Made by a program: the position numbers and the translations under genes
The notes under the pieces: generated by a model
Databases searched by the model: none
Seen by the model: only the letters and a program-made list of their open reading frames with translations
Told to the model about the DNA's origin: nothing
DNA from: Candidatus Hecatella orcuttiae
Lineage (GTDB): Archaea; Thermoproteota; Bathyarchaeia; Hecatellales; Hecatellaceae
Direction: 5' to 3'
Assembly (NCBI GenBank): GCA_002011035.2
Contig: MTLY02000002.1
Location: 372,001-436,000 of the forward strand
DNA length: 64,000 bases
Part shown: in pieces, positions 1,208-54,392 of the stretch
Layout: each line of letters starts with the position of its first letter
How positions within the stretch are numbered: position 1 is the stretch's first letter

Positions 1208-1382
1208 GGGCTTCACCTCCCAGTAAAGACAGCGGCATATCCAAATATTAAGGAAGCGACGGCTCAGTAAGGCCTAACCATGGGAAAGCTGGGCTTAGCC
1301 TTTTATTGCTCCAGCAGCTTTTCTAATCTGTAACCTGTTTGAGGGGAGAAGGCTGAAGAAAAATTTCCCCCTGCCCCGGGGC

Positions 1383-39264: not shown

Positions 39265-39855
39265 TTGTTTGACCTTGAAGGCTACGGGATCCTCAGCCTT
39301 TTCCTAGTGGCCTTCGCCGTCAACCTGCTTCCCTTCACCAGCCCCTCCAACCTTTTCATCGCCTTCAACTTCGCCCTCCTCACTCCTGTTCAGCCTCTGG
39401 CCGTCGGCTTCCTCGTGGCCTCCGCGGCCTCCGCAGCCAAGCTTCTCCATTATTATGTGGTCTTCTTTCTGAGAAGCGCCATGGGAGCCTCCCGGAGAGC
39501 CTCCTTGGAGAGGCTGGGCTCCGCCCTCGGGCGTTGGAGTCTCCTAGCCGTGGTCGTGGCAGCTGTGACGCCCATCCCCGACGACCCCGTCATCCTACCC
39601 TTGGGCCTGCTCAAGTACAGCCCTCTGAAGCTGGCCCTAGGCTACTTCGCCGGAAAAATGGCTGTGGCCAGTGTAGGCGGCTACTTGGGGAAGGTGGGTG
39701 TAGCGGTCTTCCAGCCGCTGGTGGGAGGAACCGCCCTGATGGCCGTCTCCCTTGCCTTAACGGTGGCGGCTGCCGTGGTTTTGGTGAAGGTGAACCCGGA
39801 GGAGCTGCTGAGAAGGCTGAAGAGGCCTCCTGCAGGGAGGGGGGAAAAAGCCTGA
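39265..39855 (+). CDS. VTT/DedA-like small membrane protein
   Basis: A 196-residue integral membrane protein with about five hydrophobic segments. VTPIPDDPVILPLGLLKYSP followed by LALGYFAGKM resembles the SNARE-associated (VTT/DedA) core, where a Pro-rich re-entrant loop lies before a helix; many members scramble lipids. It sits between two radical SAM genes and its stop overlaps the start of the next gene as CTGA, so a link to membrane lipid modification is possible but inferred. Confidence 0.68.
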   Translation: MFDLEGYGILSLFLVAFAVNLLPFTSPSNLFIAFNFALLTPVQPLAVGFLVASAASAAKLLHYYVVFFLRSAMGASRRASLERLGSALGRWSLLAVVVAAVTPIPDDPVILPLGLLKYSPLKLALGYFAGKMAVASVGGYLGKVGVAVFQPLVGGTALMAVSLALTVAAAVVLVKVNPEELLRRLKRPPAGRGEKA

Positions 39856-41432
39856 GGCTAGGCAGCCCCAAGATAGTTCTAACCGCCCCTGCCACGGAGA
39901 TGAGCACCCACCACCGGAAGGTCTTCCTAGGCTTCGGAGCCTGCCTTTCCAACCCCCCCTTTCCCCCCTGGTTTGTGAAGCGGCTTTTCTATCCGCCCGT
40001 CTCCCACAGCCGGGGGAAAGCGGACTTCGCCCCCTACAACCTGAGGAAGGTGGAGGCCTGTCTCTTGGAGAAAGGAGGCTTCCGGGAGTCCGAGGTGGCG
40101 ACGGTGCACCCCCAGAGGCTAAGCCGGGTGGTGGGGTCTGAAACCCGGGTGGTAGGTGTCACGGTCATGGACCCTCTAGGCCTAGGGCCCACCAGCCTCA
40201 CCTTCGCCTCCCTCTTCCGAGGGGAAACCGCCACCTGCCGGGAGTTTCGGAGGCTGATGGCTCAGGAGCCCCTTGCCTCCCGTCGGCTGCCCGTGGTGGT
40301 GGGCGGTATGGGCGCTTGGCAGCTCTATTACACGCCTGGGGCTCGAGAAAAGTACGGTATCTCCACGCTGGTCTTGGGGGAGGGAGAAAAGGTGGTGCCG
40401 GAGCTCTTCGCCAAGGCCGTGGAAGGAGCGCCTCTGCCCCCGGTAATCTTCGGAGAAGACGCGGAGGTAGAGGCTATTCCCACCATCCGGAAGCCGGCGG
40501 TAGGGGGCTTGGTGGAGGTGGCTCGGGGATGCGGGAGAAACTGCCAGTTCTGCTCCCCCACCCTCCGGGGGAGGAGGGACATGGCCCTCGGCCAGATAGT
40601 GGCGGAGGCCAGGCTCAACGTGGAGGGCGGCTGCCCCCGGCTCTGCCTCCATGCGGAGGACGTTCTGGGCTACGGCTCCGACGGCTGGAGCCGGTTTAAG
40701 CCCAACCGGGAGAAGGTGCTGGGGCTTTTCCGGAGGCTGGCGGCTGAGGTCGGCGCCCACCGGCTGGGGGTCAGCCATGTGACCCTTTCCTCCATAGCCG
40801 CGGACCCGGGGTTGGTGGAGGAGGTTTCCCAGCTTCTCCAAGTGGGCCCGGGGGCGCCTCTCTTCGGCTATCAGACAGGCATTGAAACCGGCAGTGTGAG
40901 GCTTATCAGGAGGCTGATGGCTGGGAAGCCTCTGCCCTTCAAGCCTGAGGAATGGCCTGAGGTGGTGGTTCAAGGGTTCGGAGTGTCCAAGGACTGCAGC
41001 TGGGTTCCCGCGGCCACCCTCATCATGGGCCTCCCGGGGGAGAGGGAGGAAGACGTCAACGCCAGCCTCGACCTGCTGGACGGGCTGAGGGACTGTCCAT
41101 CCTTCGTCATCCCCCAGTTTTTCATGCCCATCACCGAAACCCTGCTGGAGAAGGCGCCGCGGTTCGATGTGGAGGCCATGGGGGAAGCCCACGGCCTGCT
41201 ACTCCTCCGCTGCTTGGAGCATTCCGTCCGCTGGGCTGACCACCTGAGGCAGCGGCTCTTCCAGAGGGACGCCCCCTGGCTCAGGCTGGGCTACTGGCTG
41301 GGCTACAGGCTGCTCTACTTCTTCGCTTGGCTGGGGGGAAAGAAAATAGCGGGGAGGCTGGGGCTGAACTGGCGCCGCCTCCAAGCCGCCGGCCTCCCAC
41401 GGGAAAGCGGAATCCAGCCTTCCGGAGATTAG
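39852..41432 (+). CDS. Radical SAM protein with B12-binding-like N-terminal domain
   Basis: About 526 residues. The cluster motif is ARGCGRNCQFCSPT (C-x3-C-x2-C) near residue 225, with VVVGGMGAW before it and FGYQTGIETGSVRLI after. The family starts with a PKIVLTA-like strand followed by EMS; this stretch is encoded only if translation starts before the ATG at 39900. A CTG at 39852 overlaps the previous stop (CTGA) and has GGGAGGGGGG upstream, so CTG is my preferred start. Function unknown. Confidence 0.82.
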   Translation: MRLGSPKIVLTAPATEMSTHHRKVFLGFGACLSNPPFPPWFVKRLFYPPVSHSRGKADFAPYNLRKVEACLLEKGGFRESEVATVHPQRLSRVVGSETRVVGVTVMDPLGLGPTSLTFASLFRGETATCREFRRLMAQEPLASRRLPVVVGGMGAWQLYYTPGAREKYGISTLVLGEGEKVVPELFAKAVEGAPLPPVIFGEDAEVEAIPTIRKPAVGGLVEVARGCGRNCQFCSPTLRGRRDMALGQIVAEARLNVEGGCPRLCLHAEDVLGYGSDGWSRFKPNREKVLGLFRRLAAEVGAHRLGVSHVTLSSIAADPGLVEEVSQLLQVGPGAPLFGYQTGIETGSVRLIRRLMAGKPLPFKPEEWPEVVVQGFGVSKDCSWVPAATLIMGLPGEREEDVNASLDLLDGLRDCPSFVIPQFFMPITETLLEKAPRFDVEAMGEAHGLLLLRCLEHSVRWADHLRQRLFQRDAPWLRLGYWLGYRLLYFFAWLGGKKIAGRLGLNWRRLQAAGLPRESGIQPSGD

Positions 41433-41974
41433 AGCTTCTCCCCGCTTGGAAACTCCTCGGCCAATTCCCGAGCTAGGCGGCTGCGGTTGTCCGTGGTGAC
41501 CTCCAAGAGGCGGGCTGCAGGGTGGGCTCTGAGCCTCTGGATGAGGGAGTCTCGAGCTCGGTGGTGGACGGTGACCACCAGCGGCTTCCCGCTTTCCACC
41601 GCCTCCTCCACGGCCTGCTTGAAGCTGGGAGAAAACAGCTCCATGGGGCCGACTTCGTCGACGAAGACCACGTCCGCCTCCGCCACCGCCCTCCGCACAG
41701 CCTCCACGCCCACCGCCTCCAAGTCGGCTAGGTTGACCCGGTATTTTCCCAGCCGCGGCCCCTGAGCTTGGTGGACGTGGGCTAGGACGCCCCGGCGGCC
41801 GGTGGCCAGGTCGGTGACCTCGAAGCCTAGGCGGGTGGAGCCTTGTCGGATTTCGCCGGTGGCCATGCCGCCTACCCGGTAGCCTCTCTCGGCTAGGAGC
41901 TCGGCCAGTTTCCTGAAGACGGTGCTTTTCCCCACGCCGGGTAGGCCTGTGAGGAGGAGGATGCGCGGCCGCAT
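41429..41974 (-). CDS. Nucleoside-triphosphatase, THEP1 family
   Basis: A P-loop NTPase of about 181 residues. Walker A is LTGLPGVGKSTVFRKL, followed by YRVGGMATGEIRQGSTRLGF and Walker B VVFVDEVGPMEL, both diagnostic for THEP1. These enzymes hydrolyse several NTPs; the cellular role is unsettled. The ATG at 41974 places the P-loop at the usual distance from the N-terminus; ATGs further up (to 42019) would add 15 atypical residues. It converges with the radical SAM gene. Confidence 0.9.
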   Translation of the reverse strand: MRPRILLLTGLPGVGKSTVFRKLAELLAERGYRVGGMATGEIRQGSTRLGFEVTDLATGRRGVLAHVHQAQGPRLGKYRVNLADLEAVGVEAVRRAVAEADVVFVDEVGPMELFSPSFKQAVEEAVESGKPLVVTVHHRARDSLIQRLRAHPAARLLEVTTDNRSRLARELAEEFPSGEKL

Positions 41975-42093
41975 GGCTTGGGACCGAGAATGTTTAGTCT
42001 GAGAAAACATAAAAACCAACCTTCCGAGGATGTTTTTGTCGCCGCAAATAATTTCAGGAGTTTGACCGTGAATTCAGGGGTCTGGTTGGCGGT

Positions 42094-42339
42094 TTATGGC
42101 TTGTAGATTTTCTTCCTATGCCCGACGGCTATGAGGGTTATGGTTTTGGTCTCTTCGTCGACGGCGTATATGACGTTGTAGTTTCCGATTGTCAAGCTGT
42201 ATCTCCCTTTTAGGTCTCCGTGGAGGGGTTTGCCTAGGTGTGGGTTTTCTTGCAGCTGGCGGATTTTCCGGTCAGTTCTCCGCTTGGATTCTAGGCTTAG
42301 TTTTCGGAAGTCTCTTTCAAAACTCTTCGTGGAGAGCAG
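42094..42339 (-). CDS. RelE/ParE-family toxin (non-ATG start)
   Basis: An 81-residue protein in a frame without ATG, GTG or TTG at its head. STKSFERDFRKLSLESKRRT, then NPHLGKPLHGDLKGRYSL, IGNYNVIYAVDEETKTITL and AVGHRKKIY are in RelE order and at RelE spacing. A CTG at 42339 follows just after the antitoxin stop. Either CTG serves as start, or the true start was lost and the gene is silenced. The paired antitoxin gene lies directly upstream. Confidence 0.75.
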   Translation of the reverse strand: MLSTKSFERDFRKLSLESKRRTDRKIRQLQENPHLGKPLHGDLKGRYSLTIGNYNVIYAVDEETKTITLIAVGHRKKIYKP

Positions 42340-42340
42340 C

Positions 42341-42559
42341 CTATATTTCGTCGGACTTTCTGAGCTCCTCGACGAATTCTTCGTAGCTTCTCGTCCGCCC
42401 GGCTTTAAGGTCGGCCTCCCCCCTCCGAATGGCCTTCACCATCTCACGGTTGGCTAGGATGTCCAGTGTCTCGATAAGTTCCTCGAGCAGGTTTTTTGTC
42501 CGAACCAGAAGCTCCGTCTGCTCGCGGTTTAAGACCACAGAATCCATCTCGATCAGCAT
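42341..42559 (-). CDS. RelB-like antitoxin
   Basis: A 72-residue mostly helical acidic protein (LLVRTKNLLEELIETLDILA, then SYEEFVEELRKSDEI at the end) of the type paired with archaeal RelE toxins. Its stop codon lies one base before the toxin's proposed CTG start. The start could be the first ATG or the ATG four codons later. It likely neutralises the RelE protein and represses the pair. Confidence 0.75.
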   Translation of the reverse strand: MLIEMDSVVLNREQTELLVRTKNLLEELIETLDILANREMVKAIRRGEADLKAGRTRSYEEFVEELRKSDEI

Positions 42560-42584
42560 TCAAAGCGTTAATCTTGTTCATATG

Positions 42585-42839
42585 TTATTGTTCTGTTTTC
42601 TCCGGTGATGTCTGCAAGCGATTCAGGAGGCTGTTAGCGGCTGCGGCTTTTATTTCTCTGGCTATTTCTTGGGCCAAGGCTTTGGCTAGGTTTCTTCGGG
42701 TGTTTATGATTTCGATTCCCGCAACCTCGCCGTCCCTGCCGTATTCCAGTCGGATGTCTTCGTCGTTCTCCTTGCTGTCGAAGACTCGGCTGTCTCTGGC
42801 CACGATGTACAGGCTGTCTTCTTCCGGGTTGTAGTTCAC
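42585..42839 (-). CDS. DUF2283 family protein
   Basis: The 84-residue protein begins YNPEEDSLYIVARDSRVFDS and continues DIRLEYGRDGEVAGIEIINT, the DUF2283 pattern (a small beta-rich protein that keeps a record of D-x-L-Y). The C-terminal helix is Ala-rich. The family is often found near toxin-antitoxin genes; its role is unknown. It precedes the RelB/RelE-like pair in the same direction. Confidence 0.8.
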   Translation of the reverse strand: MNYNPEEDSLYIVARDSRVFDSKENDEDIRLEYGRDGEVAGIEIINTRRNLAKALAQEIAREIKAAAANSLLNRLQTSPEKTEQ

Positions 42840-42942
42840 CTTTAAAGCCGCGTTCCCTTTTATTGGGAGGCTGCCTCTTCGATTTTAACGTTTATGAAAG
42901 GTTTAAGCTGGTGTTGAAGCAAACCTACTTGGAGTGTTCTGG

Positions 42943-43077
42943 GTGGGCGAATCTGTCACGTTGGAGATGGTCTACAGGGAGGTTAGAAGCATCAGGGGGA
43001 TGCTTGAGAAGGTTCGGAAGGGAGAGTACGTGGCGCTCGAAGAGGCTGAGAAGAAGCTGGGTTTTACTCGGATTTGA
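42943..43077 (+). CDS. Small antitoxin-like protein (44 aa), orphan
   Basis: A short helical protein, VTLEMVYREVRSIRGMLEKV then GEYVALEEAEKKLG, reading like archaeal antitoxins of PIN toxins. GTG at 42943 with GGAG eight bases upstream is the best start. No toxin follows: the end overlaps the convergent MEDS gene by 14 bases. It may be a leftover of a decayed module. The 100 bases before it hold nothing else I can support. Confidence 0.45.
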   Translation: MGESVTLEMVYREVRSIRGMLEKVRKGEYVALEEAEKKLGFTRI

Positions 43078-44044
43078 CTAGGCCGGTTTTGGGGCCTAGG
43101 ATGATGGCGGTGGAGTGGGCTTTGAGGAGGGCTGGAAGCAGCTTGGGTTTCCCTTCTCTGGCCACTACCTCCGAGTCGTAGGCGCAGATGGCCGTCAGGG
43201 GGATTTCCAAGGTCCGATGGAGGGCGCGCTCGTAGGCTACCAGCTCTTTGACCATTCCGTGGTTGAAGAAGCAGGCCATCTCCCCGGCGACCCGGAGGCC
43301 TTGGAAGCCCCGGGCTTTCGCCTCCTCCAGCAGCTTCTTCCACAGCCTCAGGGTTTTGGCCATGTCGAACTTTCCGTCGATGATGTACCATTCTTGGTAG
43401 GGGATGACCTTCAATGCGCCTTTTCTCTTGTGTCTCTCCACGTCGATTCCGAACTTCTCCATAGCCCGCCTGACCTGGTCGCAGGCCTCTTGGCCGGCCA
43501 CGTAGGCGGCGGCTTCCTCCTCCTCCAGCCCGGCTTTCAGGTAGGTGAAGAGGACGCGGTGCTTGTCTTCGGGGTCTGTGTAGAAGAGGGCCACGTGGTC
43601 GGTGGGCTTCATCTTCTTGACAAACTCTAGGATTCCCGCCTTCTCCATCTTCGCCTCCCGGTCCCTCGGAGGGGCTGGAAATGGGAGGTAGGCGGTTTGA
43701 GTCCAGAGGCCCCGGGCTTGCTGTACGTAGTCGGCGAAGGCATAGCCTTCTTTTTCCTCGAAGTTCAGCCCCATCCTCCGGTAGAGCTTTCTGAGGATGG
43801 CTCTCAGGAGGACTGGAGCTCCGAGGCCGAACAGCCTTTCCAGCCCTTGGGCGAAGGCTTCGGGCTTTCGGGGAATATCCCTTCTTCTGAGGTGGAGGTC
43901 TCTCTCCAGATGGTAGTAGATGGCTTGGGCGGGGGGCTTTCCCACCACGGCGACTAGGCCTTCGTCCACGACCTCCAGCAGAAGCCGTCGGAATTCAGTT
44001 TCCCTCCTCCTTTCCACTGGTCTGTGCTCAGACAAACCCTTCAT
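43064..44044 (-). CDS. MEDS-domain sensory protein
   Basis: A 326-residue protein whose residues about 130-320 match the MEDS domain (methanogen/methylotroph DcmR sensory): PTDHVALFYTDPEDKHRVLF, YVAGQEACDQVRRAM, GEMACFFNHG and EIPLTAICAYD. The N-terminal 120 residues are helical and unassigned. MEDS domains are thought to bind hydrocarbon derivatives and are often linked to KaiC-like ATPases, as here: the KaiC gene lies eight bases upstream. Confidence 0.85.
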   Translation of the reverse strand: MKGLSEHRPVERRRETEFRRLLLEVVDEGLVAVVGKPPAQAIYYHLERDLHLRRRDIPRKPEAFAQGLERLFGLGAPVLLRAILRKLYRRMGLNFEEKEGYAFADYVQQARGLWTQTAYLPFPAPPRDREAKMEKAGILEFVKKMKPTDHVALFYTDPEDKHRVLFTYLKAGLEEEEAAAYVAGQEACDQVRRAMEKFGIDVERHKRKGALKVIPYQEWYIIDGKFDMAKTLRLWKKLLEEAKARGFQGLRVAGEMACFFNHGMVKELVAYERALHRTLEIPLTAICAYDSEVVAREGKPKLLPALLKAHSTAIILGPKTGLVKSE

Positions 44045-44052
44045 CTCCCAGA

Positions 44053-45468
44053 CTATATCATGGGTGTCAGCTTCACCCCGGAGATGCCTTCCCGGGTGAC
44101 CACTTGGAAGTAGTAGAGAGGCGTCTTTGGCTTGACCCCGTACATGAAGAGGGCTCCGTCGATCTCGTCGACTTTGAAGTAAAGGTCGGATACGGCTCTC
44201 AGCTGCTCCGCTAGGGCGATGGTGGGTCTGATGACGTTCACCCTCACGTCTTCAAGGTTTCTGACTAGCGTGATGTCTTGGCCGAGAATCTTCAGTCCCT
44301 CCTCCCGGCCGTAGATGTACTCGAGAGAGTCGAAACCCACCACCGACAACACCGGCTTCCCGGTTTGCTCCCTGAGCTGGGAGGCTCCGTTCCAGAAGGT
44401 TTCTATATCCTCCTCGATGGACTCGCCCTTCAACTTCAGGATGTAGGGGTCTTCGACATCGTCGCCGAAGTCCGCCACCCTCACCAGCTGCTGGAAGGTT
44501 TCCTCCTCCAAGGGAGGCACCAGCCGGGTTTTTATTCGGGGGGCGCTCAGCCCTCGGGGTGGGAGGATGAGGACTCCGTGGCCTTGGTTGGTGAAGTTGC
44601 AGACGGTAGGCCGCACGAGGCGGATGAGCGGAAAGGCCACATCCCGCCCGACTTCGACGAGGTTGTAGGTGCCTTTCCTTATCCCTCCGCCCAGCGCCTT
44701 GTCCATGTCTGGGATGCCTGTGGACAGGTGGGTTTGGGTGGAGGGTATAACCTCAAACTTCACCGGTTCCTCCACAGGCCGGAGGGTCAGTGGGGGGAAC
44801 ACTTGAAAGCCTTCCTTCAGGGTGAAGGGAATCCGGTGCTGGGTTATTTCCGCTCCCCTGAACTTCAGCACTTCTATCTCCCTCACCAGCCGGTCGTTGT
44901 GTTCGCGTCTGTTCAGCTTCAAGGTTGCGTCAGCTACAAACTCCTCCACCCCCAAGCCCAGTCTTTCCTCGCCTAGGGGGATCTCCACCACCATGAGGGT
45001 GGTACATCCGATTTGGCGGACGATCTTCCCCAGCACGGTGTGAAGGATTATTCGAGCGTCGATGCGGTTCTTGAAGGCCTGAACCAAAGCCGTGAAGGAG
45101 TCCATCACCAGCCTTCGAGCCTTCAGCGAATACACCTGGTCCAGTATCTCCTCCAGCAGCGTGGAGACCCCTTCCTCCCTGACGGTGAGCGCGTCGAGAA
45201 ACTTGAACTTCCCCTCCGCCTCCAGCTTCTGGAAGTCGAAGCCGAAACTTCGCATGTGCGCGTAGAAGCTCTCCCGGCTCTCGGCGAAGCTGACGTAGAG
45301 GCCGTTCTCCCCGTGGTCCGCGGCGCCGGAGTGGAGGAAGCGGGCTGAGAAGATGGTCTTTCCCGTCCCCGGGTTTCCCGCCAGGAGGATGAGGCTGCCT
45401 CGGGGGAAGCCGCCTCCGATGAGGAGGTCGAGGCCGGGGATACCTGTCCCCACGCGTTTTAGGCTCAA
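44053..45468 (-). CDS. KaiC-like RecA-superfamily ATPase, double domain
   Basis: Domain 1 (about residues 1-235) has GIPGLDLLIGGGFPRGS, Walker A AGNPGTGKTI, LYVSFAESRE and a Walker B-like RRLVMDSFTAL. Domain 2 (about 245-471) begins TGIPDMDKALGGGIRKGT but has VEVGRDVAFPLI where a P-loop should be, so it is probably inactive. With the downstream MEDS gene it forms a signalling pair; the output is not identifiable. The first gene of a two-gene leftward operon. Confidence 0.88.
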   Translation of the reverse strand: MSLKRVGTGIPGLDLLIGGGFPRGSLILLAGNPGTGKTIFSARFLHSGAADHGENGLYVSFAESRESFYAHMRSFGFDFQKLEAEGKFKFLDALTVREEGVSTLLEEILDQVYSLKARRLVMDSFTALVQAFKNRIDARIILHTVLGKIVRQIGCTTLMVVEIPLGEERLGLGVEEFVADATLKLNRREHNDRLVREIEVLKFRGAEITQHRIPFTLKEGFQVFPPLTLRPVEEPVKFEVIPSTQTHLSTGIPDMDKALGGGIRKGTYNLVEVGRDVAFPLIRLVRPTVCNFTNQGHGVLILPPRGLSAPRIKTRLVPPLEEETFQQLVRVADFGDDVEDPYILKLKGESIEEDIETFWNGASQLREQTGKPVLSVVGFDSLEYIYGREEGLKILGQDITLVRNLEDVRVNVIRPTIALAEQLRAVSDLYFKVDEIDGALFMYGVKPKTPLYYFQVVTREGISGVKLTPMI

Positions 45469-45601
45469 AAACTGGCACCCTCAGCAGTCTATTCTCACCA
45501 GCCTCTTATTATCTTTTATTTCAGCCTCCGCGCGGCTTAGTTTCACCTTCCTCTCAAGGCTATCTAGCGGAAGGACGCTAGAACTCTGAGGGGTCCCTTC
45601 C

Positions 45602-45811
45602 ATGCCTGTCCCCAAGGGCTACCCTGTGAGGATCACCCGGTGGAGCAGCACCAGCCGGGTGAAGAGAGGCCGGAAGAAATACTGGAAGCTCGTCTTGAAC
45701 TTCCCTCAGAAGATGGCCCCGGAGCTGGAGGACCTCTTGGGCAGGCCGGCTGTGGCTTGGAGGGAAGGCAGCAGGGTCATCATCCAATTTCAGCTAGCTG
45801 GGAACCCCTGA
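45602..45811 (+). CDS. Small basic hypothetical protein (69 aa)
   Basis: No family recognised. The sequence (YPVRITRWSSTSRVKRGRKK, then KLVLNFPQKMAPELEDLLG and RVIIQFQL) reads as a basic N-terminal part followed by strand-helix-strand, without membrane segments. It is divergent from the KaiC gene and marks the left edge of the viral cluster; whether it is viral or host is unclear. ATG start. Confidence 0.45.
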   Translation: MPVPKGYPVRITRWSSTSRVKRGRKKYWKLVLNFPQKMAPELEDLLGRPAVAWREGSRVIIQFQLAGNP

Positions 45812-46140
45812 GGGAGAACACCCCGCCTCCACGCCTCCTTCCACACGTCCATGTAAATCCCCCTCATATCCTCACACCCCTCCCGTTTTCCCAAGGGGGC
45901 TTCTCGCTAGCGGAGGCAAATTCCCCCAGCCCCCGACTTCCCCACCCTTCACAGGGCTGTGTCGAAAACCCTAAAAGCCCACCCATGCCCTAGGGAGGTT
46001 GCTGAAAAGGGTCGGGTGCACCGGAAACCCAGCCGCTGGAACCCGCAGGCCTTGGGGCCGGCGGGGCATGGGGCGGCCTTCCGCCTAAGCCAGCTTCCTT
46101 TCTCACCCGGCCTTCAGGGTTTTCTCCGAGGTGACGGCTT
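45812..46140 (+). other. 329-base stretch without a secure gene
   Basis: No RNA gene, integrase fragment or copy of the downstream tRNA end is visible here. One frame is open from a GTG at 45959 (MSKTLKAHPCPREVAEKG…, later GDGFWEV) and runs into the gene after it in a different frame; a minus-one shift near 46155 would join them. This could be a decayed or frameshifted gene, but codon evidence is weak. Confidence 0.3.
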
Positions 46141-46332
46141 CTGGGAAGTCATCGGAACCTCTACCTCCGCCACCTCCGCCGGGAGGCGGAGAGGCTGTTC
46201 AAGGAAGCCTACCACGACCGGGAGAAGGCGGAGCTGGTGGCCCTAGCCGACTACCCGCTGCTGGACATCCGGAGGGGGGAGGTGCTGCGAAACCCCCACT
46301 ACGTCAACCCCAGCCTGGAGCGCCTCCTCTGA
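46141..46332 (+). CDS. Small helical protein (63 aa) before the methyltransferase
   Basis: A convincing charged helical sequence (NLYLRHLRREAERLFKEAYH, then ADYPLLDIRRGEVLRNPHYV) in a frame with no ATG and no GTG in its first half. CTG at 46141 has GAGGTGA six bases upstream, so CTG is the likely start. A stop lies just before this site in the same frame. Its TGA overlaps the methyltransferase's proposed CTG (CTGA). Function unknown; probably viral. Confidence 0.55.
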   Translation: MGSHRNLYLRHLRREAERLFKEAYHDREKAELVALADYPLLDIRRGEVLRNPHYVNPSLERLL

Positions 46333-47141
46333 CAGCCCGGCCCAAAGGCCGGTGGGGTCTCCCCCACAGGCTTTTCCAAGGCCCCGCCTACCAGGGCGCC
46401 GCCGGGCCCGTGGCTGTGGAGGCGGACGAGGAGAAGATAGCCCTCCGTCTTCAAGCCTACCGGCTCTGGCCCCAGCGGACGGTGGTGGACCTCTACGCGG
46501 GGAAGGGCTTCCTCAGCTGGCTCTACGCCCGGGAAGGCTGTGAGCGGCTCATCTGCGTGGAGAAGAACCCTGAATATTTTGCGGTGTTGAAGCGGAACTT
46601 GGCGGAGTTCGGTGAGAGGGTGAAGCTGGTCCGGGCGGACAACCTCCGATGGCTGGAGCGAGGTGGGCTGTCCCCCGAGGAGCCGGTGACCTTCGTGGAC
46701 TTCGACGCCTTCGGCATCCCCGCCCGGCTGCTGCAGCGGTTCTTCACCGTCCACCCCATTCGGAGGGCTTTGGTGATGGCGGTCACCGACGGGCTGCTGT
46801 TCAACTTCCGGCGGATGAGCAACGCTGACCTCCGTAGGCTTTACCTGCAGGATTTTTATTTGGGCGGCGAAGCCGGGCGGCCGCTGAGCATCCAAGACCT
46901 GGGGGAGTACGCTTTCCAGATCCAGCGGACGCTGCTGGACATCTTGGCCATGCGCCACGGAGCCCAAGCCTACCCTCTCTATTTCAAGGTGAACCGCCGC
47001 TGCACCGTCGCCTACTCCGCCTATTTGGTCCTGCCCAAATTCGTGGGCGCTGTGGACTTTAAGCGCTATGTAGGTTTGAGGAGGGTGAAGACGGGGAGTG
47101 CCGCAGTATCCTTCGAGGGAAGTCTTGGACAGGCTGGCTAG
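46329..47141 (+). CDS. SAM-dependent methyltransferase, Trm1-like fold
   Basis: A class I methyltransferase of about 270 residues. Motif I is VVDLYAGKGFLSWLYA, motif II the Glu in LICVEKNPEYF, then VKLVRADNLRWL and the catalytic-region TFVDFDAFGIPARLL, which resembles the D-x-D-x-F-G-x-P of tRNA guanine methyltransferase Trm1, followed by VMAVTDG. The target could be tRNA or DNA. CTG at 46329 gives the family-like GPAYQG stretch; GTG at 46410 is the alternative. It lies at the head of the viral genes. Confidence 0.75.
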   Translation: MTARPKGRWGLPHRLFQGPAYQGAAGPVAVEADEEKIALRLQAYRLWPQRTVVDLYAGKGFLSWLYAREGCERLICVEKNPEYFAVLKRNLAEFGERVKLVRADNLRWLERGGLSPEEPVTFVDFDAFGIPARLLQRFFTVHPIRRALVMAVTDGLLFNFRRMSNADLRRLYLQDFYLGGEAGRPLSIQDLGEYAFQIQRTLLDILAMRHGAQAYPLYFKVNRRCTVAYSAYLVLPKFVGAVDFKRYVGLRRVKTGSAAVSFEGSLGQAG

Positions 47142-47496
47142 GCTTCAGCCGGACCACTACGTGGAGGTCACGTGGAGCGACGCCTGCGAGATGCGGGACG
47201 CGACTCCGGAGGACATCGAACGCGACTACCACACCACCATCCTGTGCTCAGGCCGGGTGTACGGGGTCCGAGGCGACTACCTCATCCTCGTCAGCGAGGA
47301 AACCTTCTACGGCTACCGGTTCCTCAGCATCCCCATCGGCGTCATCCAGAAGCTGCGCATCCTCACCCGGAAGCCGCGGAAGAGGCCCCTCCGCATCCTC
47401 AAGGCCGGAGTCGCCTACAAGGTGGTCTACGTCTATGTCAAGCCCGGGGAAAAGTCTCAGGTTGACGTTAAAGGACTTCGCCTTGTACGAGCATGA
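47098..47496 (+). CDS. Hypothetical viral-region protein (132 aa)
   Basis: No family recognised. The sequence is strand-rich (HYVEVTWSDACEMRDAT, TTILCSGRVYGVRGDYLILV, YRFLSIPIGVIQKLRIL), suggesting a small beta barrel such as an SH3- or OB-like fold, with a basic C-terminal third. GTG start, overlapping the methyltransferase end by 44 bases and the next gene's start by 35; such nested overlaps are typical of compact viral genomes. Confidence 0.6.
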   Translation: MPQYPSREVLDRLARLQPDHYVEVTWSDACEMRDATPEDIERDYHTTILCSGRVYGVRGDYLILVSEETFYGYRFLSIPIGVIQKLRILTRKPRKRPLRILKAGVAYKVVYVYVKPGEKSQVDVKGLRLVRA

Positions 47497-48034
47497 CTGG
47501 AGGGGCATCATCGCCCTCACCCTCGTCGCAGGGTACATCCTCCTCCTCTGGGCTCAGGTTCCCGGCATCGAAGTCCTCTCCGTGGCCGTCGGCCTGGTGG
47601 TAGGCTGGTACTTCGGCCTCCAGCAGCACCCCCAGCCCCGGCCGTGGGCGGAGCCGTCGGTTCCCCTCAAGCTCCGGCGGGCGACGGTGAAACATCCGGC
47701 GTTCAAATCCATCAAAACCCGACTGGTCGAAGCCCTCCGGCAGACGGGCTGCTACGACCCTGCCTTCGACGATATGGTGGTCGACGAGGTTGTTAAGTCC
47801 ATCATCGACATCCGCACTGTTGACCGCTATGTGGAAGGCGCCAAAGACCTCCGGGAGCTCGCTGAGGCCTTCAACGCCAAGGCGACTATAACCCGAATAC
47901 TCTACCAAGCTGTGGAGCAACTGGCCGTAACTCGGCGAGGCCGGCTGAAGAGAAAAGACATGGAAGGCTTCAAGGACACTCTCTTCACCCGTCTCAGGGA
48001 GCTGACATCCGCATCCGAGAACAATGCGCGATAG
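47462..48034 (+). CDS. Membrane-anchored viral protein, possible small-terminase-like C-terminus
   Basis: About 190 residues. Two adjacent hydrophobic segments (GIIALTLVAGYILLLWAQV and EVLSVAVGLVVGWYFGLQ) are followed by a soluble helical domain (RLVEALRQTGCYDPAFDDMV, YVEGAKDLRELAEAFNAK). Its place two genes before the large terminase is where a small terminase is usually found, and the helical part is compatible, but membrane helices argue against that; a holin-like or packaging-anchor role is possible. TTG at 47462 is my start choice. Confidence 0.5.
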   Translation: MTLKDFALYEHDWRGIIALTLVAGYILLLWAQVPGIEVLSVAVGLVVGWYFGLQQHPQPRPWAEPSVPLKLRRATVKHPAFKSIKTRLVEALRQTGCYDPAFDDMVVDEVVKSIIDIRTVDRYVEGAKDLRELAEAFNAKATITRILYQAVEQLAVTRRGRLKRKDMEGFKDTLFTRLRELTSASENNAR

Positions 48035-48261
48035 TGGCATATGGTGGCATGGTTTTGGGCGGAAAGACGAGGGTTAATTTAACGCTCGACAGCCTTCTGG
48101 TCAAAGCCATCGACCAGGTTCGCGGCCCCATCAGCCGGAGCAGCTTTATTCAAGCGCTGATCGAGGAGGCTCTGAAGAGTGTTCCCCGTGAGCGTCGAAG
48201 AGGCTTGGCTAAGGGCGAGGAGAGATCCAAGCTTCTTCGCGGGGTGGCTGCTCAGGCTTAG
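48034..48261 (+). CDS. Ribbon-helix-helix DNA-binding protein
   Basis: A 75-residue protein with the ribbon-helix-helix pattern TRVNLTLDSLLVKAIDQVRG then SRSSFIQALIEEALKSV. It likely binds DNA as a dimer, as a regulator of the viral genes or as a DNA-recognition (small-terminase-like) factor, since it lies directly before and overlaps the large terminase by 83 bases. The basic tail may be an artefact of the overlap. The start may be the ATG at 48049. Confidence 0.7.
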   Translation: MAYGGMVLGGKTRVNLTLDSLLVKAIDQVRGPISRSSFIQALIEEALKSVPRERRRGLAKGEERSKLLRGVAAQA

Positions 48262-49501
48262 GCCCACAGCCTACCAGGCCAGGTTCCTCACCGACATGAG
48301 CAAGCGGCAGGTGTTGAAGTGGAGCCGGCAGAGCGGAAAGTCCACCTGCCTCGCCGTCAAAGCCTTGTGGTTCGCCATCTTCCACCCTCAAACCACCACC
48401 CTTATCATCTCTCCGTCTCTCAGGCAGTCGATAAACTTGAGGGATATTGTCGCCGGCCTCGTCGAAAGGCTGCCCCAAGATGCCAGGAAGAACTTGGTGG
48501 AGAAAACCTTGAGAACGACCCTCTACCTCTGGCGGGGCAGCCGCATCCTCGCACTGCCCGCAAACCCAAACACGCTCCGCGGCTTCACGGCTCACATGGT
48601 CCTCGTCGATGAGGCGGATTTCTTCCAAAACCCTGAGGCCATCTTCTACGGCACCGTTTACCCCATGCTGACCACCACCGACGGCTGGCTGATAGTCAGC
48701 TCCACCCCATGGACCACCAAGGGCTTCTTCCACCGCATCTGCCAGCCCGGCAGCGGCTACACGCACCACTTCATCAACTGGCGCGACGCGGTGCAGGCGG
48801 GAGTGGCCCGGGAGGCGGTTATCCGCGAGGCCATGGAACGCAACCCGCCGGAGGTCTTCCGCAGGGAGTACGAGTGCGAGTTCGTGGAGGACGTCGACGT
48901 CTTCCTGCCCTCGGACCTCATCGCCCGCTGCATCGACTCGCAGCTGGAGTACACGCCCTTCGAGGCTGAAGCCCGGGGTGAGTTCTACGTGGGATGCGAC
49001 TTCGGCAAGCACCAGGACTACTCGGTGGTGGCCGTGGTGGAGAAAAAGGACGACGTGATTTCCCTAGTCCACCTTCACAGGTTTCCACTGGAGACCCCCT
49101 ACGCCTCGGTCATCGGCTACGTGAAAGCCCTGTGCGACCGGTGGCGCAGCGTCGCCGCGGTGCGCCCTGACATGACCGGGGTGGGCGACTTCATCGTGGA
49201 AGAAATGCAGCGGGCTGGAATCCCCAGCGTGGAAGGCGTCAAGTTCACCCGCGAAAGCAAAGAGGCCATAGCCGTGCCGGTGAAGCAGGCTATGATTTCA
49301 GGGCGTGTTCGCATCCCCTACGACCGGGACCTCATCGCTGAGCTCAACGTGGAACGCTATGAGATGTCGAAAGACGGCCACTATGTTTTCAGCCACCCCG
49401 AGCGAAGCCACGACGACCGCTTCTGGGCCTTCTGCCTCGCCGCCCACGCCGCCCTCGGCAGGGGCGAAGGAGGAGCCATCATAGGGGGTGTCCGTCGATG
49501 A
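48179..49501 (+). CDS. terL: Terminase large subunit
   Basis: The DNA-packaging motor and nuclease of a tailed virus (440 residues). Walker A is WSRQSGKST near residue 50, Walker B MVLVDEAD near 142, coupling motif IVSSTPW. The RNase H-like nuclease domain shows VGCDFGKHQDYSVVAVVEKK and RPDMTGVGDFI, with the final Asp pair in HDDRFWAF. All catalytic acids appear intact, so packaging should work. It starts inside the upstream gene and overlaps the portal start by four bases. Confidence 0.95.
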   Translation: MFPVSVEEAWLRARRDPSFFAGWLLRLRPTAYQARFLTDMSKRQVLKWSRQSGKSTCLAVKALWFAIFHPQTTTLIISPSLRQSINLRDIVAGLVERLPQDARKNLVEKTLRTTLYLWRGSRILALPANPNTLRGFTAHMVLVDEADFFQNPEAIFYGTVYPMLTTTDGWLIVSSTPWTTKGFFHRICQPGSGYTHHFINWRDAVQAGVAREAVIREAMERNPPEVFRREYECEFVEDVDVFLPSDLIARCIDSQLEYTPFEAEARGEFYVGCDFGKHQDYSVVAVVEKKDDVISLVHLHRFPLETPYASVIGYVKALCDRWRSVAAVRPDMTGVGDFIVEEMQRAGIPSVEGVKFTRESKEAIAVPVKQAMISGRVRIPYDRDLIAELNVERYEMSKDGHYVFSHPERSHDDRFWAFCLAAHAALGRGEGGAIIGGVRR

Positions 49502-50709
49502 CCCTGTGGGGAAAAATCAAAAACTGGTTCACCGCCAGCGAAGCCCAAGGCTTGGAGGAGAAAGCCCGAGGCCTCGTCGCCGGGGTCCCTTCCGTCTGGG
49601 GCCGAGGGCAGAAGGCACCCTTCAGCTTCCAAACCTGCTTCGAACGCTACGAGAACGTAGGCTTGGTCACCGCGGCTGTGGACGCTACAGCGGAGATGAT
49701 CGCAGGCCCAGGCTACCACACCGAGGGCGTCGGTGAAGCCAAGCGTGTGGTGGACGACTTCGCGGAGGAGGTCAACCTCGACGGCCTGCTCATGGACGCG
49801 GTGCTGGACTGCGCCATCTGCGGCAACTCGTGGGTGGAGAAGGTGGTGGAGGACGGCCTCATCGTCGGCCTCAACTACCTCGACCCACTGAGCATGGAGC
49901 AGAGCATCATCCTCAAGAAGGCCCCCGGAGGCTTCGACCTCTACCACAACCAGGTGGAAGGCTACGTGCAGACCGTCCGAGGCAGGAAGACAGCCCAGTG
50001 GCCTGCGGACCGCATCATCCACTTCACCTGGAACCGGCCCCGCGGCAGCCTCTACGGCACAGGCATGGTGAAGCCTGTGGAAGCCTACCTGCAGACCATC
50101 CTCGAAGCCGAGCAGGACATGGGCAAGATCATCAAACGCTACGCCGCCCCCAAGGTGGCTTGGATGCTGCAGGACGCGGGGAAGACGGTTTTCGACGAGG
50201 TGAAGCGGCAGCTCCGCACCGTGCAGCCGGACGAGGACTACGTCATCGCCACCACCGGGAAGACGAGAATCGACGCCCAAGTCATCCAGATTGACCCCCG
50301 CAGCCGCTTCGAGTACTTCTTCAACCACATCACCAACGCCATCATGGCCGGGTTGGAGTGCCCCATCACCTTCCTCTTCCGCGGCGACGTGAGGGTCTCA
50401 GACGCCTCCGCCACGGCCATGCTTCAAGCCTTCGACCGGAAAATCCGCATGAAGCAGCGCCGGTTCAAACGCATCATCGAAGCCCAGCTTTTCCGCCCGC
50501 TGGTCCGGCAGCACGGCCACAGCGAAGTCCCCCGCCTGGTCTGGGGACCTGTGGAGGTGGAGACCTTGGAGGACAAGCTCAAGAAGTGGACGGAGCTGCT
50601 TTCCAGCCGCCTCAGCCTCAGGGATGAAACCCGCCGCGCCCTCGAGGATGAAATGATGAAAGACCTAGGCCTTCAGTCTACCGCAGAAGAGAGGAGTGAA
50701 GATGCCTAA
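49498..50709 (+). CDS. Portal protein
   Basis: The ring at the capsid vertex through which DNA passes (403 residues). The HK97/SPP1-like pattern is visible: VGLVTAAVDATAEMIAG near the N-terminus, DCAICGNSWVEKV, NRPRGSLYGTGMVKPVEAYL and the late helical HITNAIMAGLECPITFLFRG with SDASATAMLQAFDRKI. It starts at ATG overlapping the terminase stop (ATGA) and is followed, with overlap, by the presumed protease. Confidence 0.92.
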   Translation: MTLWGKIKNWFTASEAQGLEEKARGLVAGVPSVWGRGQKAPFSFQTCFERYENVGLVTAAVDATAEMIAGPGYHTEGVGEAKRVVDDFAEEVNLDGLLMDAVLDCAICGNSWVEKVVEDGLIVGLNYLDPLSMEQSIILKKAPGGFDLYHNQVEGYVQTVRGRKTAQWPADRIIHFTWNRPRGSLYGTGMVKPVEAYLQTILEAEQDMGKIIKRYAAPKVAWMLQDAGKTVFDEVKRQLRTVQPDEDYVIATTGKTRIDAQVIQIDPRSRFEYFFNHITNAIMAGLECPITFLFRGDVRVSDASATAMLQAFDRKIRMKQRRFKRIIEAQLFRPLVRQHGHSEVPRLVWGPVEVETLEDKLKKWTELLSSRLSLRDETRRALEDEMMKDLGLQSTAEERSEDA

Positions 50710-51448
50710 GCATCCTGACTTCGAAAAAATCCACCGCGACTTCCTAAGCCGCTACGGAGCCGAGGAGGGGGAAAGACGCTACTACGCCTGGCTCCGCAGC
50801 CGCAGCCTCGACGACACCCAGCCCTTGGGCTCCCAGCGCGCTAAGCTGGAGGAAGGCACCGCCTTCCAGTGGGCTAACACCCTCGACTGGGTGGGGCAGC
50901 CCAACCGCATCCGAGGCCTCGCCCTCACCCCCGGCTCCAGCCTCAACCGCAACCTCTACCCGGAGGAGGAGCTGGCCAAGGCAGCCAGAACGCTGGCGGG
51001 GAAACCCATCTACGTCAACCACCTCCACACCGGGACAGCTGTCCCCGGGCAGGCTCAGCCGCAGGTAGGCCGGGTGCTGGACGCGGAGTACATCCCCGGC
51101 CGAGGCATCGAATACGTGGGCGCCGTCGAAGACCCCGCTGTTTGGAGGCTCATCCGAAGCGGCCTGATCACAAAGGTGAGCGTGGCGGGAAGATGCCGCT
51201 CCGCCCTCCCCGTCGACGGGGTGAAGCCGGAGGGGCTCATGTTCGAGGAGCTGAGCCTCCTCTGGGGGGAGGAACAGCCCGGTGTCCCCGGCGCCTACGT
51301 CCAAGTTTGGGAAAAGCTCAGCCCCAGGGGAAGGGCGAAGCCGCTGGGCCTAGGCCTCCGGGAAGGCCCTGAACCCGCGCAGCCGCCCACTCCAGACCTT
51401 TGGGGGGCTAGGCTGAGGGACGTGCTGCCTTCCAAGGCAAGGCGGTGA
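50696..51448 (+). CDS. Putative prohead protease
   Basis: A 250-residue protein in the protease position between portal and capsid. RIRGLALTPGSSLNRNLYPE, LAGKPIYVNHLHTG, GRVLDAEYIPGRGIEYVGAV and RLIRSGLITKVSVAG resemble herpesvirus/HK97-type prohead proteases, where the conserved His would be in VNHLH and the Ser in VSVAG. The C-terminal part is Pro-rich and may be the scaffold end. Family assignment is by position and pattern, not certainty. Confidence 0.72.
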   Translation: MKMPKHPDFEKIHRDFLSRYGAEEGERRYYAWLRSRSLDDTQPLGSQRAKLEEGTAFQWANTLDWVGQPNRIRGLALTPGSSLNRNLYPEEELAKAARTLAGKPIYVNHLHTGTAVPGQAQPQVGRVLDAEYIPGRGIEYVGAVEDPAVWRLIRSGLITKVSVAGRCRSALPVDGVKPEGLMFEELSLLWGEEQPGVPGAYVQVWEKLSPRGRAKPLGLGLREGPEPAQPPTPDLWGARLRDVLPSKARR

Positions 51449-51579
51449 AGCTGATTTTTCACGGTCACAGCCATGACGGCAGCCCAGCCGCGTCGGTTGG
51501 GCCTACGCCGGAGCTTGACGGCTGAGGGGGATACTCCCCTGCCTTAGTGTGGGAGAGCAAAAGTTTGGGAGAAAGAAAC
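51449..51579 (+). other. Spacer with hairpins before the decoration protein gene
   Basis: About 130 bases without a gene. AGGGG and CCCCT around a GATACT loop (near 51525-51540) form a stable hairpin. An A-rich ribosome binding site GGGAG lies eight bases before the ATG at 51580. It may hold a promoter or processing site for the abundant capsid proteins. Confidence 0.35.
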
Positions 51580-51987
51580 ATGACCAGTCAAGGCGACGTG
51601 TACACCCTAGGCATCGTGCTAGACCTCAGAGCCGGAGGAGCCATCGCCAAAGGAGAACCTGTCAAAACCGGCGCCGCCGACGGCAAGGTTGTCGCAGCCT
51701 CCGACGGAGACGACCCCGTAGGCGTGGCCCTGAAGGCCGCCAGCGCCGACGGAGACCCCGTGCCCGTCATGGTTTCCGGAGCCGTCTACCTGACGGCCGC
51801 CGCGGCCATCAGCCGGGGGGAAGCCGTTCAGCCGGCGGGGTCCCAGAAGGTGAAAGCCCTCGCCGACCAGCCGGTGGACGAAGGAGGCACCGCCACCTAC
51901 ACTGTCTACTACCAGAAGAAGCTGGGCATCGCCTTGGAAGCCGCTTCCGCGGACGGAGACGTCATCCTCGTCCAGCTGGCCCTCTAA
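51580..51987 (+). CDS. Capsid decoration protein (DUF2190-like)
   Basis: A 135-residue beta-rich protein with two similar halves: KGEPVKTGAADGKVVAASDG and RGEAVQPAGSQKVKALADQ, each followed by a strand and then by ALKAASADGD or ALEAASADGD. This fits head-stabilising (cement) proteins of the DUF2190 type and lies directly before the capsid gene. ATG at 51580 with GGGAG eight bases upstream is the start; an upstream GTG gives an unlikely basic leader. Confidence 0.8.
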   Translation: MTSQGDVYTLGIVLDLRAGGAIAKGEPVKTGAADGKVVAASDGDDPVGVALKAASADGDPVPVMVSGAVYLTAAAAISRGEAVQPAGSQKVKALADQPVDEGGTATYTVYYQKKLGIALEAASADGDVILVQLAL

Positions 51988-52001
51988 GGCGGTGAAGCGC
52001 C

Positions 52002-52991
52002 GTGCAGAAGATTCTAGAAACAGGAGTTAAGGTGGCTAAGGAAGACATGGCTGTTCGAAGGCTGGAGGAAAAACTTCAGACTCCCCTGCTTTCAGGGCGG
52101 ACCCTCCACGAAGCCCAGCGGGTCCTCCACCAGCGCACCGAAGCCATGCTTAAAGACCGACATCTCCGCGAGGTCCTCCTAAGCGACCAGTCGCAGGCCA
52201 CGGCCAAGGTTCTGGACATCGTCTGGGAGGCGGCCAAGCCCCGGCTCATCGGCCGGGAGCTCTGCGCGGTCTTCGTCAAGGAAGACCCGTCCCTGAAGGT
52301 GCCCCGGCATAAGACCTTGGTCTCAGCCCGCTACCCGGTGGCGGAGGGCGCTGACATCCCTGTGAACGTGGGAGCTTTCGACTCGGTGACCCTGACCCCT
52401 GAAAAGTCCGGGGTAGCCGTGCCCATCAGCCGGGAGATGATCGAAGACGCCGCGTGGGATGTCGTGGAGTTCCAGCTCCGCGAAGCCGGCCGAGCCATGG
52501 CCGAGGTGGAAACAGAGCGGATCATCGCCCAGATGATCGCTGACGCAGGGAACTCCGCGGCTGCAGCCACAGCTGGGACGCTGGCCTACGACGACATCGT
52601 GGGCATGATCAACCTCATCCAAGCCGACAACTTCCTCCAAGACTACATCCAAACCGGCCGAGGCTACTTGGTGGTGCACCCCGACCAGTACGCCGACCTC
52701 CTCAAGGACTCCAGCGTGAAGCAGGCTCACTCTTGGGGCGGCATCGCCGTGGCGCCCACAGGCCGCTTGGAGACCATCTTAGGCCTCAACCTCCGGGTGA
52801 CCACCAAGATCACCAGCGGCACCGCCCTGGTCGTCGACGCGGAGCACGCGGGAGCTCTGTTTATCCGAAGGGACATCACCGTGGAAAACTACGAAGACCC
52901 GATTAAGGACCTGGCCGGAGCCGTGCTGACAGCCCGGTGGAAGTACGCGACGATGCAGGCGAACGCCATAGGCAAGATCACAGGAGCCTAA
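52002..52991 (+). CDS. Major capsid protein, HK97 fold
   Basis: The shell protein (329 residues). A helical N-terminal part (about 1-95) is followed by the HK97 core: EGADIPVNVGAFDSVTLTPE, VAVPISREMIEDAAWDVVEF, MAEVETERIIAQMIA, RGYLVVHPDQYADLLKDSS and the C-terminal GALFIRRDITVENYEDP. The GTG start is preceded by AAGGCGGTGA. A hairpin with a T-run follows, so transcription of the head genes probably falls off here. Confidence 0.93.
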   Translation: MQKILETGVKVAKEDMAVRRLEEKLQTPLLSGRTLHEAQRVLHQRTEAMLKDRHLREVLLSDQSQATAKVLDIVWEAAKPRLIGRELCAVFVKEDPSLKVPRHKTLVSARYPVAEGADIPVNVGAFDSVTLTPEKSGVAVPISREMIEDAAWDVVEFQLREAGRAMAEVETERIIAQMIADAGNSAAAATAGTLAYDDIVGMINLIQADNFLQDYIQTGRGYLVVHPDQYADLLKDSSVKQAHSWGGIAVAPTGRLETILGLNLRVTTKITSGTALVVDAEHAGALFIRRDITVENYEDPIKDLAGAVLTARWKYATMQANAIGKITGA

Positions 52992-53014
52992 GCCTAAACC
53001 ACCCGTTTTCTTCC

Positions 53015-53055
53015 GGCGGTTCTTTTCCCGTGAAAAAGCAACCGCCCCTTTTTTT
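53015..53055 (+). terminator. Hairpin plus T-run terminator after the capsid gene
   Basis: GGCGGTT (53015-53021) and AACCGCC (53040-53046) pair perfectly around an 18-base loop, followed by a run of seven T at 53049-53055. This looks like a bacterial-type intrinsic terminator and would limit read-through from capsid to tail genes. Confidence 0.7.
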
Positions 53056-53083
53056 ATCGCTTCCAAAAATCACGTGAGTTAGG

Positions 53084-53356
53084 TTGAAGGTTAAAACCGG
53101 CGTCTGCCCCCGGTGTGGAACCCGCTACTACCAGCGAGGCGACCGCCTTTACATCTGCGACTGCATGCTCACCAAGCCCGACGGGTCCCTCATGGCCGCC
53201 TACGACCCCGCCGTCGACAGCCTCAGCTACGGCTCTAGGGCTATGCAGAAAATCCGAAACCCTGAGGACCGGAGTCGGAGAAGTTGGAGGGTTCACTTCT
53301 GGGACGGCGGCGAGAAGAACGAAGAAAACCGCCCGGTGGAGGTGAAGATGAAATGA
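53084..53356 (+). CDS. Small zinc-ribbon-like protein (90 aa)
   Basis: CPRCGTRYYQRGDRLYICDC forms a C-x2-C…C-x-C pair that probably binds zinc; the rest is charged and unassigned. TTG start at 53084. It lies between the capsid terminator and the connector genes. Function unknown; small zinc proteins at this place are common in archaeal tailed viruses, but this is inferred. Confidence 0.6.
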   Translation: MKVKTGVCPRCGTRYYQRGDRLYICDCMLTKPDGSLMAAYDPAVDSLSYGSRAMQKIRNPEDRSRRSWRVHFWDGGEKNEENRPVEVKMK

Positions 53357-53373
53357 CCTCCCCGAGGGAAAAA

Positions 53374-53383
53374 ATCTTTAAGC
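53374..53383 (+). promoter_or_regulatory. TATA-like box in the capsid-connector spacer
   Basis: ATCTTTAAGC lies about 40 bases before the lysine-rich micro-ORF. With the terminator at 53015-53055 and a T-run at 53518-53528, it suggests a separate small transcript here. Confidence 0.4.
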
Positions 53384-53421
53384 ACAACCCGCGGATATAT
53401 TACCCAGCCGGGTGAAAAATT

Positions 53422-53490
53422 CTGGCTAAGAAAAAAGCTAAGAAAACCAAGGCTAAAGGCTCCGCTAAATCCAAAGGCAGAAAGTGCTAG
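53422..53490 (+). CDS. Lysine-rich micro-protein (22 aa), CTG start
   Basis: Reads LAKKKAKKTKAKGSAKSKGR then KC, extremely basic. GGGTGA lies six bases before the CTG, and a TATA-like box is about 40 bases upstream, so translation is credible even without ATG. A DNA- or capsid-binding peptide is possible. A T-run terminator follows. Because it is so short, chance cannot be excluded. Confidence 0.4.
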   Translation: MAKKKAKKTKAKGSAKSKGRKC

Positions 53491-53517
53491 CCGGACCGCC
53501 TTCAACCTCCCTCCCCT

Positions 53518-53528
53518 ATTTTTTTTCT
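53518..53528 (+). terminator. T-run before the connector gene
   Basis: TATTTTTTTTC follows the lysine-rich micro-ORF by about 30 bases and precedes the connector gene by about 25. A typical archaeal T-rich terminator. Confidence 0.45.
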
Positions 53529-53553
53529 TTCCCCGTCCACTCGAGGTGAACTC

Positions 53554-53871: not shown

Positions 53872-53888
53872 ACGGCTGAAGGCTGAAG

Positions 53889-54317: not shown

Positions 54318-54392
54318 CATCTTCCGCATGGTCGGATGAAAATTTCCTTTCGAACATACTAAACAGTTCTTTTCCAGTGGACGGGAGACATC

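Follow-up and report, generated by a model that had tools for sequence, protein, structure and literature searches.

Candidate CTG, ACG and other non-standard start codons in Candidatus Hecatella orcuttiae and related Bathyarchaeia

Candidate start codons in the Hecatella window

The genome of the archaeon Candidatus Hecatella orcuttiae (Bathyarchaeia; Hecatellales) comprises 1.75 Mb in 3 contigs. The DNA considered here, hereafter the window, is a stretch of 64,000 nucleotides of contig MTLY02000002.1 (positions 372,001 to 436,000). A sequence-only reading of the window had proposed that five of its genes have their best start at CTG, and the five CTG codons with their quoted upstream motifs are all present at the positions given. 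Comparison with related genomes leads us to think that Bathyarchaeia, H. orcuttiae included, probably begin a small share of their genes at codons other than ATG, GTG or TTG, through near-cognate initiation by the ordinary initiator tRNA at sites anchored by a Shine-Dalgarno (SD) sequence. The genes concerned in the window are collected in Table 1. Below, G numbers denote compared genomes and L numbers compared loci; seven of the genomes searched, G001-G007, belong to the family of H. orcuttiae.

Table 1. Window genes with a candidate non-standard start codon
Gene	Position	Strand	Codons	Candidate start	Basis
hisS	1353..2663	+	436	CTG	GAGGGG, 6-nt spacer; NCBIfam hisS
Radical SAM gene	39852..41432	+	526	CTG	CTGA overlap with stop of upstream VTT-domain gene; Pfam Radical_SAM
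RelE/ParE-like toxin gene	42094..42351	-	85	ACG 42351, probable	Pfam ParE-like toxin; homologue alignment
63-codon gene	46141..46332	+	63	CTG	GAGGTGA, 6-nt spacer
Methyltransferase-like gene	46329..47141	+	270	CTG	CTGA overlap; GGAG, 8-nt spacer
Lys-rich open reading frame	53422..53490	+	22	CTG	GGGTGA, 6-nt spacer; sequence only
Provirus-region gene	54475..54813	+		ATT, possible	AGGTGA, 6-nt spacer; SD-positioned ATT

The 16S rRNA of H. orcuttiae ends in GGCTGGATCACCTCCT, and SD sites of the GGAGGTGA type are therefore expected; the 16S end with which the SD pairs is GGATCACCTCCT. Ahead of the called ATG genes of this genome, G is enriched at positions -13 to -7.

Alignment with orthologues supports CTG as the probable start of three genes, those at 39852, 46141 and 46329. 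The radical SAM gene has GGGAGGGGGG just upstream of its CTG, and no in-frame ATG, GTG or TTG occurs from TTG 39534 until an ATG within the conserved motif KIVLTAPATEM. Its nearest named relatives are metagenome-assembled genomes of Candidatus Hecatellales, with 64% (L020) and 62% (L021) identity. Among the nine other loci compared, L285 (G024) and L022 have a TTG one codon past the aligned codon and L281 (G007, 69% identity) has an ATG ten codons ahead of it; the aligned codon itself is ATG in L283 and L117 and GTG in L282, but at 41-43% identity only. Neither L020 (the same place as L284) nor L021 has any standard start past the upstream stop, and the two have in common GGGGGTGG-AAAGGC-TCG. 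For the 63-codon gene, the match in G002 spans all 63 residues at 67% identity with TTG at the same codon, and G001 has an ATG two codons further along, a position extrapolated from the alignment. Homologues of the methyltransferase-like product, 58-66% identical, occur in G001, G002, G003 and G007. Here GTG stands at the CTG position in G003, two codons before it in G002 and three after it in G001, the G003 and G001 positions again being extrapolated. The gene looks cellular, because four of the seven family members carry it and a search for it in viral contigs gave no match. Homologues starting at later ATG or GTG codons, which had been named as the outcome that would speak against CTG, are not what the comparison returned for 39852 and 46141; for 46329 the GTG codons lie at, before and after the CTG.

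The expectation that standard gene callers would miss or misplace such genes is borne out by a list of open reading frames (ORFs) of at least 60 amino acids restricted to ATG, GTG and TTG starts. In that list the radical SAM ORF, stretched to TTG 39534, has 632 aa, the methyltransferase ORF begins at GTG 46131 and has 336 aa, and the 63-aa gene at 46141 has no entry.

Two of the five original CTG sites fared differently. The Lys-rich ORF at 53422 is taken up with the provirus region below. The CTG at 42339 (minus strand), proposed as the start of the RelE-like gene, was rejected: it has no SD-like run just upstream, lies four codons inside the conserved N-terminus and would cut the conserved KYR from the protein. 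The alignment of homologues makes ACG 42351 the more likely start, since it mostly begins at the residue following this codon; in the homologues at L216 and L219 a TTG occupies exactly its position. Some other homologues carry their ATG or TTG a few codons before this position, and the SD ahead of ACG 42351 is weak and does not provide a proper site at the start distance. CTGA stop-start overlaps, also put forward as part of the pattern, are not enriched and by themselves are no evidence. Of 37 cases with a downstream ORF in the H. orcuttiae sample, 5 have a C ahead of the overlapping TGA, versus 54 of all 172 TGA-ending ORFs of 80 or more codons; the three H. orcuttiae cases without another start listed in this count include neither of the window overlaps, and the 63-codon ORF is under its length limit.

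Outside the range covered by the sequence-only reading, hisS offers a further candidate. Protein similarity extends upstream of its first standard codon, and relative to the CTG there is a TTG or ATG one codon before in G003 and G028 and a TTG three codons after in G002.

Conserved genes of Bathyarchaeia without a standard start

The idea of CTG initiation is also supported in the relatives of H. orcuttiae, where CTG recurs at the probable start of PheT and of ribosomal proteins. Matches to PheT occur in 60 genomes, and 30 loci were read. The aligned start codon is ATG, TTG or GTG in 27 of them, one has an ATG two codons on, and in G014 and G008, sister species at 81% identity, it is a CTG preceded by the conserved GAGGTGATTTAAA. 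Profile TIGR00471 matches the CTG-start proteins from residue 1, and the first standard codon comes 90 codons in. Among 30 loci for uS11, 29 were readable and 28 have a standard start; the remaining one, G002, has CTG where its congeners G004 and G006 have ATG, and its first standard codon is 24 codons in. CTG also stands at the start of uS9 in G002 and in G010, a member of another family (G037 and G039 have an ATG a codon earlier); it fits uS15 of G003, where profile position 2 falls on residue 2, and the geranylgeranyl reductase of G037, where two of the five homologues shown have TTG.

The focus on CTG proved too narrow, however: ACG cases are about equally numerous, and there are ATT, TCG and TTT cases as well. 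PurQ of H. orcuttiae has an ACG that places profile position 2 on residue 2, and the H. orcuttiae ACG of DHODH and of a NuoM-like subunit aligns with ATG in G001. The ACG of the CbiO-like ATPase of G014 corresponds to TTG in G002 and to ATG in H. orcuttiae; in DnaG of G012, which has ACG, 59 residues align ahead of the first standard codon, 50 of them identical. Csl4 of H. orcuttiae has no standard codon among the first 46 past the upstream stop, the second of these being ACG. TCG fits the fructose-6-phosphate aldolase of G032 (profile position 2 again on residue 2), ATT the isopentenyl phosphate kinase of H. orcuttiae and ThyX of G014, and TTT the HisH of G003. For eight genes (PheT, uS11, 46141, 46329, DHODH, NuoM-like, CbiO-like and geranylgeranyl reductase) orthologues have a standard start at the very same codon.

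It could be argued that there is no non-standard initiation here at all, and that the genes begin at downstream standard codons, have decayed or contain assembly errors. Errors do occur in metagenome assemblies, and a later ATG, GTG or TTG is available in some cases (hisS, DHODH, the NuoM-like gene and a helix-turn-helix gene). Set against this, the CTG of pheT is retained in two species and that of uS9 in members of two families, TCG follows the same SD in both L020 and L021, and the first standard codon lies deep inside PheT, uS11 and Csl4. We consider this explanation unlikely.

One could also envision that C-to-U editing of the mRNA turns genomic ACG, TCG and CTG into AUG or UUG before translation. 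In plant chloroplasts, ACG start codons are edited in this way, and the Bathyarchaeia likewise have genomic ACG at conserved start positions. CTG, ACG and TCG are moreover the three codons with a nominal excess in the positional analysis below, and each yields AUG or UUG by a single C-to-U change. Editing would not mend the C-free codons, ATT in isopentenyl phosphate kinase and ThyX or TTT in HisH; unlike the chloroplast sites, the starts considered here are known from DNA. We know of no archaeal mRNA editing of this start-codon type. Start-codon editing in a prokaryote, with the few ATT and TTT cases being separate near-cognate starts or misreadings, strikes us as decidedly improbable.

How often conserved genes lack a standard start was gauged by looking for homology upstream of the first ATG, GTG or TTG. 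An initial all-against-all version was swamped by antisense ORFs in redundant loci and was redone. The testable ORFs numbered 181 in H. orcuttiae, 247 in Hecatellales relatives, 286 in other Bathyarchaeia and 126 in Thermoproteota outside the Bathyarchaeia, with 12, 7, 7 and 2 raw positives, respectively. Curation left 6 (3.3%), 5 (2.0%), 5 (1.7%) and 1 (0.8%), that is 17 of 28 over all groups; a lineage trend in these rates is not established with such numbers. For the Bathyarchaeia together, 16 of 714 testable ORFs (about 2%) lack a standard start at the conserved N-terminus, a figure that depends on our own curation, which kept 16 of 26 raw positives, and that is to this extent a weakness of the case.

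Rejected from the H. orcuttiae rows were an antisense ORF (window minus 39913) and the short or low-identity matches L016 plus, L011, L005, L008 15883 and L019; among the Hecatellales relatives L145 and L143, among the other Bathyarchaeia L136 (cbf5, probable intron) and L318 10273, and outside the Bathyarchaeia L298 were dropped. The cbf5/TruB-like frame is broken at its GTL(D/E) motif both in H. orcuttiae (L017, about 11079, plus strand) and in G039 (L136, about 13722, plus strand). This is probably the archaeal cbf5 protein-gene intron, and it mimics a missing start. The actual codon is unclear in three of the cases kept: cysS (L009), a nucS-like gene (L015) and hisS of G014 (L131). No standard start lies close to the conserved N-terminus of the H. 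orcuttiae cysS gene (L009 14533, plus strand), for which the CTGA overlap at 14533 offers one candidate start. The labels nucS-like, CdhA-like and ornithine cyclodeaminase-like are presumptive, having been assigned by eye from motifs.

These rates bear on whether the Bathyarchaeia are special. Near-cognate starts might be equally rare in all archaea that use SD sequences, and the Thermoproteota outside the class supply the one curated case in 126 testable ORFs. This is a nucleotidyltransferase gene (L299, about 1567, minus strand) with ACG or AAG after a strong SD; an ORF at L303 8054 (minus strand) likewise has a CTG after a strong SD. From their sequences, non-standard starts may extend past the Bathyarchaeia. 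The rate outside the class is lower, 1/126 versus 16/714, though by eye the difference is not significant. We regard an equal rarity everywhere as a real possibility, if short of probable.

Shine-Dalgarno positioning and the initiation machinery

A second analysis dealt with codon position. In ORFs of at least 100 codons we counted the in-frame codon at the normal SD distance, provided that the SD lay no more than 12 codons from the upstream stop; non-standard codons were counted only where no standard codon was nearby, and the counts were compared with those at six null distances. The Bathyarchaeia pool consisted of 424 kb from H. orcuttiae, 484 kb from Hecatellales relatives and 1,080 kb from others. 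Near-cognate codons were seen 27 times versus 14.7 expected (Poisson P 0.0025, Fisher P 0.0056), and other non-standard codons 75 times versus 84.7. SD sites followed by CTG, which the sequence-only reading had proposed to count, are in excess across the Bathyarchaeia, 10 versus 2.17 expected (P 9e-5). ACG shows a weak excess (5 versus 1.83, P 0.04), followed by ATT (4 versus 1.67, P 0.09) and TCG (2 versus 0.33, P 0.04, one of the two being doubtful); these P values for single codons are uncorrected for the number of codons. AAG and AGG together show no excess (2 versus about 5.7). By group, near-cognates numbered 7 versus 0-6 at the null distances in H. orcuttiae, 16 versus 3-10 in other Bathyarchaeia and 5 versus 2-5 outside the class.

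Other approaches were set aside. A free-codon expectation-maximization model of starts returned 16% non-standard starts in H. orcuttiae but 39% in E. coli, and was for that reason used only to list candidates. The excess of codons at SD distance gave no clear signal in the absence of a coding filter, even for ATG. The pattern GGTGA-N6-X was followed by 80 or more open codons in 10 of 69 cases for CTG, 4/34 for ACG, 16/72 for TTG, 13/42 for ATG and 10/35 for GTG; because CTA (5/51) and CAA (5/50) were also raised, this count is not used as evidence.

A special initiator tRNA, or loss of the initiation factor aIF1, could alter start selection in the lineage and would account for a lineage-wide pattern. 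aIF1 is reported to favor discrimination against non-canonical starts in Sulfolobus (PMC6237735, PMC8211752). H. orcuttiae has one match to aIF1 (SUI1), and 49 of 61 genomes have matches; relaxed start selection is therefore not explained by absence of the factor. The initiator-tRNA stem pattern GGGCTNNNAACCC has nine matches in the H. orcuttiae genome, only one of which is a tRNA; its anticodon is CAT, although this is one pattern only and other initiators are possible. We hold either variant of this explanation to be very improbable.

The order CTG, ACG, then ATT, with AAG and AGG not in excess, suggests that the CAU initiator reads these codons directly where an SD anchors the site. The codons, their SDs, the lack of standard starts, the orthologous exchanges for ATG, GTG or TTG and the presence of aIF1 can be read off the genomes directly. 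That ribosomes initiate at these codons, with which tRNA and with which amino acid, we infer. In the mechanism we favor, most of these starts would be at CTG or ACG, fewer at ATT and, it appears, an occasional one at TCG or TTT. Such a codon would usually stand at the place of AUG, some 6 nt past an SD that is rich in G and pairs with the end of the 16S rRNA. Most likely, the SD would keep the 30S subunit positioned and the normal CAU initiator tRNA would tolerate the mismatch, so that the proteins would still begin with Met.

Several points weigh against this mechanism. The case is built on comparison of DNA sequences. TCG, with two mismatches to AUG, fits near-cognate initiation less well, and for one of the two SD-positioned TCG codons (window minus 4792) an ATG further into the gene is a plausible start. 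The near-cognate excess in the positional analysis comes from H. orcuttiae and the other Bathyarchaeia; taken alone, the Hecatellales relatives show none (4 versus 3-7). Finally, a coding score above 4 upstream of the first standard codon did not set H. orcuttiae (15 of 334 genes) apart from the controls (E. coli, 4/130; G003, 21/215; G014, 13/102).

Relation to known near-cognate starts and genes of the provirus region

Near-cognate initiation at CUG, ACG and AUU occurs in eukaryotes and in E. coli initiation-factor mutants. The Bathyarchaeia candidates are likewise led by CTG and ACG, then ATT, without an AAG or AGG excess; they differ in belonging to a class of archaea that has aIF1 and whose mRNAs are led by an SD, and in being known from sequence. 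Rare CUG and AUU starts have also been described in bacteria and archaea, where, as here, the non-standard codon with its SD replaces an orthologous AUG, GUG or UUG start. Across the 36 groups of related genomes surveyed there, 2 of 61,358 ancestral AUG starts had become CUG and 1 had become AUU (PMC5622118), in contrast to the roughly 2% of homology-testable genes in Bathyarchaeia, ACG included and essential genes affected. In a literature search of titles and abstract openings, with most subscription papers outside its reach, no paper describing Bathyarchaeia genes that start at CUG or ACG came up. Near-cognate starts in themselves are already known; their repeated use, ACG included, in conserved genes of one archaeal class looks new.

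If this is true, an uncultured archaeal class initiates at more codons than the three for which gene callers allow, genes for ribosomal proteins and tRNA synthetases among them, and the lineage would be a natural experiment on the control of start fidelity by the SD and aIF1. Standard gene finders appear to lose or misplace the first parts of such genes, some of them essential; for Bathyarchaeia genomes this would bias the annotation of N-termini and of small genes as well as comparative studies of start codons. On the whole, the original observation of recurrent CTG starts is partly confirmed and its interpretation partly supported.

Two candidates of the window lie among provirus-like genes. 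The ORF at 53422 has a good SD; no convincing homologue was found, a counterpart is absent from the related element of G001, and its coding status is left undecided by the sequence. ATT 54475 is a weak candidate: similarity of its gene to G003 extended upstream of the first ATG in the initial all-against-all comparison, and the redone test did not return it as positive. The provirus-like genes themselves occupy 51549-54813 (plus strand) and include an HK97-type capsid gene at 52002-52991 (Pfam Phage_capsid); this capsid-bearing set is 78% identical in G001 and 57-60% identical in five viral contigs.

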